Assembly (NCBI GenBank): GCA_016788705.1
Contig: JAEUSQ010000038.1
Span: 66,194-130,193 of the forward strand
Source of the DNA: Bacteroidetes Order II. bacterium
Lineage (GTDB): Bacteria; Bacteroidota; Rhodothermia; Rhodothermales; UBA2364
Length of the DNA: 64,000 nt
Reading direction: 5' to 3'
The notes under the pieces were generated by a model. The model saw nothing but the letters and a program-made list of their open reading frames with translations, ran no database searches and was not told the origin of the DNA. Positions 25,729 through 29,419 of the stretch are shown here, in pieces (position 1 is the first letter of the stretch; the number at the start of each line of letters is the position of its first letter). A program made the position numbers and the translations under genes.

Positions 25729-26805
25729 TTACGGTATGAACAAGACAGCCTCTCCTTCCTTGAGGATGCGGAAGCCCTGCGGCCCTAAGTCTTGTGCCTC
25801 GATCGCGGCGCTCAGTGCCAAAAGTGGATCATCCAATCCCTCATCAGCCATCTCGAACGTTCCGTAGTGCATGGGGATGGAGGTTTTTATGCCCAATTCG
25901 CAGTGCATTTGGACCGCTTGGGCCGGGGAGACATGGACTGGCGACATAAACCACTCCGGACGATACGCCCCGATGGGGAGGATGCCCACATCAAAGCCCT
26001 CTGGAAACTGTTTTTGAATCTGCTGCACAAAGGGACCATATCCCGTATCGCCCGCAAAATAGAGCCGTTTTTCTTGAACCGTTAACACAAAACCGGCCCA
26101 AAGCGTTTTATTACGATCAGAAAGCCCGCGTCCGGAAAAATGTTGTGCGGGCACACATGTTAGATGCATCACATTAGACAAGTTTTGCGTATCCCACCAA
26201 TCCATTTCCTGTACCTTCCGAATATTTTGGGACGCCAAAAATGCAGCATTGCCCAATGTCGTCACAATTTTACAGCCAAAACGATTTTGCAGCCGCCCTA
26301 AGGTCTTAGGATCGCAATGGTCGTAATGATTATGGGTCAGGAGTACTAGGTCTATTGGGGGCAAGTCCTCAAAGCGAATCCCCGGTGGACGCACCCGCTC
26401 CGGCCCCAACCAAGAAATAGGACTTACCCGTCGGGCATACACCGGATCTGTCAGGATATTGAGGCCCTCCCATTGTATCAGCATCGTGGCATGATTGATG
26501 AAGGTAATCCGTAGCCCGTTGCCTATACGGTTTGGGGGTTTCTCCCCAGAGGGCTGTTCTGAATAAGCAGGCCAGTACCCCACATTTTCGCGGTTTATAC
26601 GCCACTTTAGCACATCCCAAAGCCCTTTCTGAGGCACATCGCCCAGATTCTGGAAGTGCGTGCCATCAAAATGATCACTCTTGGGGCCGATATAACCCGG
26701 AGCAGAAAAAGTGAGATCTGCCACCCAAGCAGCAAAACCACCCAGTCCAAGAACTCCGGCAAGTCCTTTTATTGTTTTGCGCATAAAAGCTCTGCGGTCC
26801 ATCAT
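25729..26805 (-). CDS. Metallo-beta-lactamase-fold hydrolase with Tat-type signal (NAPE-PLD/UlaG-like)
   Basis: This protein of about 358 residues has an N-terminus MMDRRAFMRKTIKGLAG followed by a hydrophobic stretch, which fits a twin-arginine export signal (RRAFMRK). The zinc site THNHYDHCD is the HxHxDH motif, and further ligands appear in PAQHFSGRG, FAGDTGYG and the late PMHYGTFE. The order INHATMLIQWEG, then NILTDPVYARRVSP is typical of the family that includes mammalian NAPE-phospholipase D and bacterial UlaG-like lactonases. The substrate cannot be deduced. I start at the MM pair (codons 26800-26805). An upstream start at 26856 adds 17 residues (MVQPFGKNKVLGANKKK) that do not suit an export signal. 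It is divergent from the BlaI-like repressor gene. Confidence 0.85.
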   Translation of the reverse strand: MMDRRAFMRKTIKGLAGVLGLGGFAAWVADLTFSAPGYIGPKSDHFDGTHFQNLGDVPQKGLWDVLKWRINRENVGYWPAYSEQPSGEKPPNRIGNGLRITFINHATMLIQWEGLNILTDPVYARRVSPISWLGPERVRPPGIRFEDLPPIDLVLLTHNHYDHCDPKTLGRLQNRFGCKIVTTLGNAAFLASQNIRKVQEMDWWDTQNLSNVMHLTCVPAQHFSGRGLSDRNKTLWAGFVLTVQEKRLYFAGDTGYGPFVQQIQKQFPEGFDVGILPIGAYRPEWFMSPVHVSPAQAVQMHCELGIKTSIPMHYGTFEMADEGLDDPLLALSAAIEAQDLGPQGFRILKEGEAVLFIP

Positions 26806-26920
26806 TTTTTTCTTGTTTGCACCCAGTACCTTATTCTTGCCAAAAGGTTGCACCACTTCCCGCTTAGGCCCAACTATTCCATCCTTTTAGATGAGCAAGA
26901 AACTTTTTTGCATTCTATAC

Positions 26921-26949
26921 TTGCATCTCTCCTACAAGTGTAGTATTTT
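26921..26949 (+). promoter_or_regulatory. Candidate promoter of the blaI-like gene
   Basis: TTGCAT (26921-26926), a 17-bp spacer and TATTTT (26944-26949) form a plausible sigma-70-like promoter. The first operator palindrome sits inside the spacer and the second just after the -10, where a bound repressor would block transcription. Confidence 0.4.
26932..26943. promoter_or_regulatory. BlaI/MecI-type operator 1
   Basis: CTACAAGTGTAG is a perfect palindrome (CTACA-AG-TGTAG) carrying the TACA/TGTA half-sites recognised by BlaI/MecI-family repressors. It lies 30 bp before the start codon of the repressor gene, so autorepression is the natural reading. Confidence 0.7.
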
Positions 26950-26953
26950 AAAA

Positions 26954-26965
26954 CTACAAACGTAG
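26954..26965. promoter_or_regulatory. BlaI/MecI-type operator 2
   Basis: CTACAAACGTAG (CTAC-AAAC-GTAG) repeats the operator 22 bp downstream, centre to centre, about two helical turns, so both sites face the same side of the DNA. It ends 7 bp before the repressor's ATG. Confidence 0.65.
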
Positions 26966-26972
26966 TAACAAC

Positions 26973-27362
26973 ATGAAAAGACGTATTCTTCAATCTTTAG
27001 GCGAGGCCGAGTGGGAGGTACTCCAAGCCATATGGCAATTGGGCGAGGCTACCGTAAGCCAAGTTCATGAGCGCATCCGAAGTCAACGAGAAGTTGCTTA
27101 TACCACCATTATGACGCTGATGAAACGGCTTACTGAAAAAGGCTACTTATCCTATACGACTCGTGGCCAAGCTTATGTTTACCATGCGAATATAGAACCA
27201 GACACCTTTAAAGACGCCATGGTCTCTGAGGTGGTGGAAAAGATATTTAATGGTTCGCCCTTGGCCTTGGCGCAAACCCTTTTTAAACAAGAAACCTTTT
27301 CAGAAGCGGATCGGGCTGAAATAGAATCTCTCCTCGCCCAAATCCGCAAAAACGAATCATGA
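26973..27362 (+). CDS. BlaI/MecI/CopY-family winged-helix repressor
   Basis: This 129-residue repressor has a winged-helix N-terminus (LGEAEWEVLQAIWQLGEATV at 9-28) with recognition helix region YTTIMTLMKRLTEKGYL (42-58) and the wing YTTRGQAYVY (61-70). A C-terminal dimerisation helix pair follows (about 80-129). Length and layout match BlaI and MecI, which are cleaved when a membrane metalloprotease partner senses its signal. Two matching operators lie directly upstream. The stop codon overlaps the ATG of the M56 protease gene by 4 nt (ATGA), so the two are translationally coupled. A beta-lactamase gene is not present nearby; the target is likely the operon itself and unknown genes. Confidence 0.92.
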   Translation: MKRRILQSLGEAEWEVLQAIWQLGEATVSQVHERIRSQREVAYTTIMTLMKRLTEKGYLSYTTRGQAYVYHANIEPDTFKDAMVSEVVEKIFNGSPLALAQTLFKQETFSEADRAEIESLLAQIRKNES

Positions 27363-28261
27363 CGGAGGCCCTTCAGATGAATGCCGACTTAGTAATAACA
27401 TTGCTGTATAAACTTTGGATGCCCATGCTGGCCTGGACATTTGCGGCATGGAGCTTATGGTTCTTTGTCCAGAAGCATGGAACCCGCCATCCGGTCTTTC
27501 GCTACCATGTTTTGCGCGTCCTCATTCTGCTGTTACCGATTGGCCTGCTTGCTGTCGCCTGGATCCCTTCTCCGTTTTCTAAAAATGATCTAGCAAATAA
27601 GATAGAGGCCACATCGCCTCCTGCGAACATAGCGCCCACTTTGCCCGCACCTTTTCTACCCAATCCTGTACCACCGTCTATCCCCCAACCAGATATTCAA
27701 AATCCTCCGATCAATTTCTCCTGGCGTTTGGTACTGGATTGGGGCATATTGTGCCTAACCGCTTTTGCCGTCATTTTTGGTTTAATGCGATTTGTACAGC
27801 TATTTAGAGAGCATTATGCCTTATCTCGTTTCAAGGAAGAAGTATTTCACCTTCCTCCCGACATAGAAAAGGCCGTCATACATTCTTTGGAACTCCCTCA
27901 AAACATCGTACTTACCCACACCAAGTCCATAGAAACACCCCTGACTTTTGGATGGCCAGAAGCCTACATTGTGCTTCCGACCACGTTGATCACCGATGAA
28001 GAGGCCCGACGATTGGCCATCCTGCATGAATTGTGTCACATCCGACATCACGACTTTCTACAACAATACCTCTTGCGCGGATTGGATGCCGTATTCGCCA
28101 TTAATCCGATGATGCGCTACCTTATCCTCCAATTAGAAGCAGAGCGCGAACTGATTCGTGACGAAGAAGTGGTACGCCACCCAGATGTTTCGTCTTATGC
28201 CTATGCCTCGAACCTGTACAAACTCGCCACAACCCAAGACCCCTTATTCATCACATCCTAA
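27359..28261 (+). CDS. BlaR1-like M56 membrane metallopeptidase, N-terminal part ending at an in-frame stop
   Basis: This 300-residue product has two N-terminal membrane helices (about 13-37 and 50-70), a Pro-rich loop (about 85-120) and a third helix (about 123-145). The M56 peptidase domain follows, with HELCH at 223-227 and LEAERELIRDEEVV (about 259-272) supplying the third zinc ligand. In BlaR1 and relatives a fourth helix and an external sensor follow. Here TAA at 28259-28261 stops the frame, but the same frame continues without another stop as the 381-codon ORF at 28274, which starts with exactly that missing part. So this looks like one sensor gene split by a nonsense codon, or a protein evolved into two pieces. 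It overlaps the repressor gene by 4 nt. Confidence 0.85.
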   Translation: MTEALQMNADLVITLLYKLWMPMLAWTFAAWSLWFFVQKHGTRHPVFRYHVLRVLILLLPIGLLAVAWIPSPFSKNDLANKIEATSPPANIAPTLPAPFLPNPVPPSIPQPDIQNPPINFSWRLVLDWGILCLTAFAVIFGLMRFVQLFREHYALSRFKEEVFHLPPDIEKAVIHSLELPQNIVLTHTKSIETPLTFGWPEAYIVLPTTLITDEEARRLAILHELCHIRHHDFLQQYLLRGLDAVFAINPMMRYLILQLEAERELIRDEEVVRHPDVSSYAYASNLYKLATTQDPLFITS

Positions 28262-28273
28262 GCCCAATACTCC

Positions 28274-29419
28274 ATGAGATGCCCCTCGCTTGCCATTTAT
28301 GCCTTCTCTCCGGCTCAAAACCTCAAAACCCGCCTTCAAAACTTGGCAACCAACCGGGCGTATTCTCCACGTGAAAAACGAAACACCATCCTGCTGCTAA
28401 CCATCACAAGCCTCATCATATTAGCTGGTTTGATTGGTTTCTTTGGTGATCCAACTGAAGCGCCCATCTCCCTTCAAAAAGCAAAAAGCACCTTTTTGCC
28501 CCCAGACCCTTATGCTTCAGTTATGGTTTTTACCAACTTAACCTGCTGGGTAGATAAAAAGCAAGTATGCGACCACCCAACAACGTTTAATGTAGAAAAA
28601 ATTGGGGTAATCTACTTGGTTGATATAGGCTTGGTCACCTTTTCGTTACAACCTTTTGCCGATGCAAAACCTATTGGAACGGTGAAAGGAAAAGAACTCA
28701 TACTCAATCTGTCCAATACACCTCTACACTTGACCTCACAATTTGATATTTTGGTAAAAGCCCAAGGGAAACCCATTTTGGTTTATGGAAAACAAGACAT
28801 AGGCTATGAAATAGAAAGACTATTAGGTCTAGCTCCCGAATACAAAAATGTATCATATAGGAGTACAGCTACGAGTTTCGAGGGGGATCAATACACCTTT
28901 TCAATAAGCAACATCAATCGGTACGAAACCTTATATGCAACCAGACCAAAGCCAGGCTTAACCTTTTCTCGTCCAACAATCCAATTGGAAAACCTAGTAA
29001 TACCACCACCCATGTTCTTAAGCCATACGCAATCCATAAACAATCGTTCTTTGGACACAATCCATACAAAAGATCATGACATATTATCCTTGATGGGTCT
29101 GGAAACCTATGGATTATTCCAATTCTCTTTACATCCTTTTAAAAATGCAACACAATCTGCACAAGTGGAAGGCAACAGGTTGCGCGTCCAGACGGCTGTG
29201 GGCTTACTCCAAATCACCACTTCCGAAAATATCCTATTAACAGAGACCGGAACCATCTGGTTTACGCTTATTCCATCCACTTCTTATCGTAAAGACGAAA
29301 TTCACCGTGAGCAAGCGGCTTGTCGGGAACAGCTAAAGGAAGCCCCAACATTTGCCGAACAGAACTGTCGGATAGGCGGCTTCAGAATGCCCGTCTATTT
29401 CGAGAGGAGGGAATTCTAA
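28274..29419 (+). CDS. Membrane-anchored sensor part of the M56 system (in frame after the stop)
   Basis: This 381-residue ORF lies in the same frame as the M56 gene, 12 nt after its TAA. It begins with a linker (FSPAQNLKTRLQNLATNRAY, 11-30) like the one before the fourth helix of BlaR1-type proteins, then one membrane helix (about 37-57) and an external domain. The external part holds two similar halves: GLVTFSLQPFADA (119-131) with KGKELILNL (138-146), and GLFQFSLHPFKNA (280-292) with EGNRLRVQT (299-307). It does not resemble the penicillin-binding sensor of BlaR1, so the signal is probably not a beta-lactam. Whether it is translated alone from this ATG, by readthrough, or not at all is open. 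It ends 8 bp from the convergent SDR gene. Confidence 0.6.
   Translation: MRCPSLAIYAFSPAQNLKTRLQNLATNRAYSPREKRNTILLLTITSLIILAGLIGFFGDPTEAPISLQKAKSTFLPPDPYASVMVFTNLTCWVDKKQVCDHPTTFNVEKIGVIYLVDIGLVTFSLQPFADAKPIGTVKGKELILNLSNTPLHLTSQFDILVKAQGKPILVYGKQDIGYEIERLLGLAPEYKNVSYRSTATSFEGDQYTFSISNINRYETLYATRPKPGLTFSRPTIQLENLVIPPPMFLSHTQSINNRSLDTIHTKDHDILSLMGLETYGLFQFSLHPFKNATQSAQVEGNRLRVQTAVGLLQITTSENILLTETGTIWFTLIPSTSYRKDEIHREQAACREQLKEAPTFAEQNCRIGGFRMPVYFERREF

Follow-up and report, generated by a model that had tools for sequence, protein, structure and literature searches.

We identified a two-gene M56 receptor in the window, the whole 64,000-nucleotide stretch of DNA that was analysed, in an operon that reads from its sequence as blaI, a protease subunit and a one-helix sensor subunit. 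The best explanation of the locus is a single fission, preceding diversification of the genus, that turned an ancestral one-chain M56 receptor into two genes. We give this explanation as a whole, including the mechanism proposed below, a probability of roughly 0.82; the gene fission itself, as an old and single event kept by selection, is well supported by the genome comparisons. A limited literature search found no report of a BlaR1/M56 gene fission.

The first open reading frame (ORF), at 27359-28261 (+), encodes a membrane M56 metalloprotease subunit of 300 residues. It has a BlaR1 profile match and is matched by the Pfam model Peptidase_M56 (PF05569) over residues 131-292 (E=1.8e-19). The Pfam match halts at model position 269 of 296, against 294-296 in unbroken relatives, so that the domain model itself is cut at the break. 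The HELCH zinc and catalytic motif (H223, E224 and H227; 28025-28039, +) contains the HExxH shared without exception by the genus and unbroken relatives, and ELIRD (28148-28162, +) contains the third zinc ligand E264 and D268, 37 residues past H227. The gluzincin core of peptidase family M56 (HExxH, with E...D about 37 residues on) is present, and the E...D motif and its spacing are those of BlaR1 (PMC3356374). All five of these residues, as well as the helix-8 Tyr282, are invariant among the aligned members of the genus and unbroken relatives. The NCBIfam model blaR1_generic scored 51.7 bits on the protease part; its cut-off is 400.

The last codon of the protease ORF is the TAA at 28259-28261 (+), and the M56 frame continues beyond it for 385 further codons to the TAA at 29417-29419. 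Counted from its first ATG (28274), the second ORF has 381 codons, and the joined frame has 686 codons plus the terminal stop. The initial annotation had described this arrangement, and the ORF coordinates confirm its stop, its 381-codon reopening in the same frame and its joined length.

The second ORF (28274-29419, +) encodes a sensor subunit of 381 residues with a cytoplasmic N-terminus, an equivalent of BlaR1 helix 9, one transmembrane helix and a predicted periplasmic domain. The N-terminus reads M-R/Q-C/Y-P-S/T-L-A-I-Y in the three species in which we found the split. Its PSLAIY (28283-28300, +) corresponds to the strand on the P-side of the autocleavage site in BlaR1, with P4, L6, A7, I8 and Y9 invariant. 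The LKTR motif (28322-28333, +) carries Arg20, the equivalent of BlaR1 Arg294, and its L, K and R are invariant in nine aligned receptors. The transmembrane helix, equivalent to TM4, occupies residues 39-57 (28388-28444, +; hydropathy 2.62). Profile self-comparison revealed two copies of an unnamed domain in the external part, at about residues 108-175 and 268-336. The limits of both are approximate: copy 1, GLVTFSLQPFADAKPIGTVKGKEL..., lies at 28595-28798 (+) and also matches unbroken receptors, and copy 2, GLFQFSLHPFKNATQSAQVEGNRL..., lies at 29075-29281 (+). Four cysteines of the sensor are invariant (C91, C99, C350 and C365), consistent with an exported location.

A profile of the three sensor ORFs aligned with unbroken M56 receptors from another family of the class over residues 3-174 (E=1.3e-7), a span that takes in helix 9, the transmembrane helix and the first sensor repeat. 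In a separate profile comparison, the sensor repeats aligned with a long unbroken paralogue from the same genus (E=6.6e-8). Judged from these alignments, the second ORF supplies the C-terminal half that the M56 frame lacks, and the earlier reading of it as linker, fourth helix and external sensor agrees with the alignment from residue 3 through helix 4. The external part matched no Pfam or NCBIfam model, and nothing in its sequence points to a penicillin-binding sensor domain. Structure predictions for the sensor alone and for the read-through joined frame, made from two-sequence alignments, were poor, each with a mean pLDDT of 33.

Two copies of the unnamed repeat domain (pattern GL..FS..PF..A...G.V.GN.L) are present in the sensor subunit and two in a fused paralogue of the genus. 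M56 receptors from another family in the class have a single copy of this repeat, located between TM4 and TonB_C. Loci with the unnamed repeat beyond the window include L065 (a minus-strand M56 receptor, 841-2847) and L071 (262-3042).

Orthologues of the protease turned up in two congeners, G001 (75% identity) and G002 (45%), when 60 related genomes were searched. In each, the M56 frame spans about 300 codons and a distinct sensor ORF comes next, 79% (G001) or 48-49% (G002) identical to the focal sensor. The neighbourhood is identical in all three genomes and consists of a succinyl-CoA-ligase-like gene, a divergent MBL-fold gene, blaI, the protease, the sensor and a convergent SDR-like gene, some of the neighbours being named by eye from sequence. 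Between the focal species and G001, dN/dS (NG86) is 0.07 for blaI, 0.31 for the protease and 0.26 for the sensor, and both halves evidently evolve under purifying selection. A genuine split into two subunits, one of the readings offered in the initial annotation, is supported by its fixation in all three sequenced species of the genus and by selection on both halves. The split lineage consists of three species only and represents one evolutionary event.

The two ORFs could also be independent, with the protease acting alone and the second ORF repurposed. Sensor-less M56 proteins do exist, such as the BlaR homologue of Mycobacterium tuberculosis (PMC9834060). However, the second ORF retains helix 9 with the active-site Arg, helix 4 and the sensor, the operon and gene order are the same in all three species, and conservation of the sensor matches that of the protease (79 vs 75% and 48 vs 45%). 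We regard independence of the two ORFs as unlikely.

The junction between the halves reads ACA TCC TAA GCC CAA TAC TCC ATG in the focal genome, ACC TCC TAT ACC TAA TAT CCT ATG in G001 and AAT GCT TAG CCC AAC AAA CAG ATG in G002. The separating stops are thus TAA, TAA and TAG, respectively. The stop of G002 has the same position as the focal stop; in G001, TAT stands opposite the focal TAA, and the stop follows two codons downstream, at the position of the focal CAA. All three species keep an in-frame ATG after the stop and maintain the frame through the spacer, which is 12 nt in the focal genome (28262-28273, +), 6 nt in G001 and 12 nt in G002. Since the stop falls within the same few codons in both other species, the focal stop is not due to chance.

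The common frame of the ORFs in all three species and the lack of a second stop in the two to four spacer codons would also be expected from programmed or leaky readthrough of the stop, which would produce some full-length receptor besides the two parts. Against this, the identity of the stop, its position and the next bases (GCC, TAT and CCC) all vary, a conserved ATG follows the stop in every species, and retention of the frame over 6-12 nt is expected by inheritance alone. We rejected frame retention as proof of readthrough, because a spacer of this length seldom gains indels. Readthrough has no positive support and is improbable as the explanation of the locus, though it may occur at a low rate. 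A recent nonsense mutation, which would leave the strain with signalling lost and the repressor bound, or a sequencing error at the TAA, both considered in the initial annotation, would agree with the continuity of unbroken relatives at the break point but can be dismissed, because G001 and G002 as close relatives have two genes with the same break, the three species have differing stops, the stop was exchanged and shifted in G001 while the split and the downstream ATG were kept, and both halves are under purifying selection.

The reading of a single old gene fission agrees with the distribution of the split. Every further M56 match in the surveys of the order and the phylum was unbroken, save for frames truncated by contig ends. 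The 114 genomes of the order gave 47 M56 matches, and of these only the three from the genus have frames near 300 aa; the others have 460-1,093 aa, save two shorter ones at contig ends. About 110 M56 matches were found in 247 genomes of the phylum, and frames of about 300 aa were again confined to the genus, one frame cut by a contig end aside. A maximum-likelihood tree built from 39 M56 domains placed the three split receptors in one clade (100/99 support) among unbroken receptors. The focal genome itself also has three unbroken M56 paralogues, of 967, 623 and 593 codons. On these genome surveys and this tree, the split is derived and rare.

An unusual domain combination was observed in genome G074 (L055, 1653-3344), where an unbroken M56 receptor has TonB_C and an ExbD-like domain after TM4. 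This receptor adjoins a blaI-like gene.

In Staphylococcus aureus BlaR1, the autocleavage loop comprises residues 271-289, with the scissile bond at Ser283-Phe284 (PMC9834060). A profile of joined and unbroken sequences matched S. aureus BlaR1 (8exs, residues 41-299; E=9.9e-17); in this match the helix-8 YA motif falls on Tyr261 of BlaR1 and the LKxR motif on Arg294. With Tyr282 and Arg325 (joined numbering) as the respective anchors, the equivalent of the autocleavage loop lies at 28232-28318 (+), is lengthened by 10-14 codons and holds both the stop and the start. The distance from Tyr to Arg is 43 here, compared with 29-33 in the unbroken receptors measured. The anchors support a fission point inside the autocleavage-loop equivalent. 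The break had previously been placed between the protease and the fourth helix, which is correct and can now be narrowed to this loop, upstream of the Arg-bearing helix.

The genetic cut is about nine residues ahead of the Ser283-Phe284 equivalent, and the strand expected on the P-side of the scissile bond remains with the sensor subunit. At the aligned P1' position the three species have A, T and A. Of 25 unbroken receptors, 18 have a bulky residue there and seven do not. The small P1' residue in the genus, with apparent loss of the bulky one, is suggestive only, given that the register could be shifted by one residue (with Tyr preceding and Phe/Val following) and that the three species are one event. 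As proof of a dead cleavage site it was rejected, both for that register and for the seven unbroken receptors with the same feature.

The system resembles BlaR1/MecR1 and BlaI/MecI of S. aureus in having an M56 gluzincin with membrane helices, HExxH and an E...D 37 residues on, a helix-8 Tyr, a helix-9 Arg and a BlaI-family repressor partner. It probably functions like BlaR1/BlaI. Autocleaved BlaR1 likewise consists of two polypeptides, cut in the same loop (PMC9834060), but in the present system the cut is encoded in the genes, the linker has 10-14 additional codons, a penicillin-binding sensor domain is unmatched, and the protease, TM4 and sensor are distributed over two ORFs in three species instead of forming one polypeptide. 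Because of its two chains and the lack of a matched penicillin-binding sensor, the receptor would be classified outside the BlaR1 β-lactam receptors as defined.

The single-chain M56 receptors of related Bacteroidota (M56, TM4, TonB_C and other domains) have the same order of parts, and those from one family of the class show profile homology over helix 9, TM4 and the first sensor repeat. In several of them blaI adjoins, as it does here. They differ in being unbroken, with roughly 455 to 1,185 codons and varied C-terminal domains. The M. tuberculosis BlaR homologue is, as here, a protease without a covalent sensor (PMC9834060); an adjacent sensor subunit is not described for it in that paper, whereas here the sensor is the next gene.

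In our working model, which we consider likely, the receptor is genetically pre-cut where BlaR1 cuts itself, and the sensor completes and plugs the protease. The ribosome would terminate at the stop and restart 6-12 nt downstream at the conserved ATG, and the protease and sensor subunits would assemble in the membrane like autocleaved BlaR1. BlaR1 Arg294 enters the protease active site and pairs with Asp246 (PMC9834060). The sensor subunit would contribute helix 9, its Arg20 would be the partner of protease Asp268, and the protease active site would be complete only in the two-subunit complex. BlaI is blocked by the BlaR1 loop, whether cleaved or uncleaved (PMC9834060), and the C-terminal part of Bacillus licheniformis BlaR1 has been described as an inhibitory propeptide (PMC3356374). 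We infer a plug mechanism in which the N-terminal strand of the sensor (SLAIY) would lie substrate-like in the protease cleft and hold it shut. A periplasmic signal on the sensor would then shift helix 4 and pull the plug, and the protease would cut BlaI. Cleavage of BlaI would free the tandem operators described below, with self-induction of the operon and possibly of the divergent neighbour too. That the free sensor N-terminus is a removable, non-cleavable plug, with signalling by plug withdrawal and zero self-cleavage, is a tentative and rather doubtful extension of the model.

Whether autocleavage of BlaR1 contributes to the signal or is incidental to it has been disputed (PMC3356374), and BlaR1 structures from 2023 suggest that it is spontaneous and merely tunes the response (PMC9834060). 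A lineage in which the cut is fixed in the genes, in the same loop, is a natural experiment on the role of autocleavage. A sensor-less M56 protease can also have its sensor on a separate polypeptide, and "short" M56 genes elsewhere therefore merit a check for an adjoining one-helix partner.

The repressor gene (26973-27362, +) encodes a BlaI/MecI-family protein of 129 residues (Pfam Penicillinase_R, E=6.3e-32) that matches MecI/BlaI structures with E values of about 1e-11 to 1e-10, and its stop overlaps the M56 start (ATGA). The position equivalent to Asn101-Phe102 is Thr-Leu, which is kept in the genus. The BlaR1/MecR1 trait of a neighbouring BlaI/MecI repressor and operator is present, as Penicillinase_R and tandem inverted repeats. 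Two BlaI-type operators, neither assigned to a strand, precede the gene with position and spacing kept in all three species: operator 1, CTACAAGTGTAG (26932-26943), with the inverted repeat CTACR-NN-YGTAG, and operator 2, CTACAAACGTAG (26954-26965), which is separated by 10 nt from operator 1 and by 7 nt from the blaI ATG. In a pattern search, the tandem arrangement of CTACRNNYGTAG was found only here among 25 such sites in the three genomes. Sites matching CTACRNNYGTAG are rare in these genomes, with 6-11 compared with 23-25 for the reversed control pattern. Conserved tandem BlaI-type repeats just upstream of blaI point to autoregulation of the operon through these putative operators. A scan for sigma-70-type promoters and terminators gave no more than shuffled sequence.

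The divergent gene (25729-26856, -) encodes an MBL-fold hydrolase with a twin-arginine-like start (MDRRAFMRK). Its closest solved structure is N-acyl-phosphatidylethanolamine phospholipase D (NAPE-PLD; E=2.6e-60). The MBL-fold gene and the BlaI operators share one intergenic region in all three species, as in a bla divergon.
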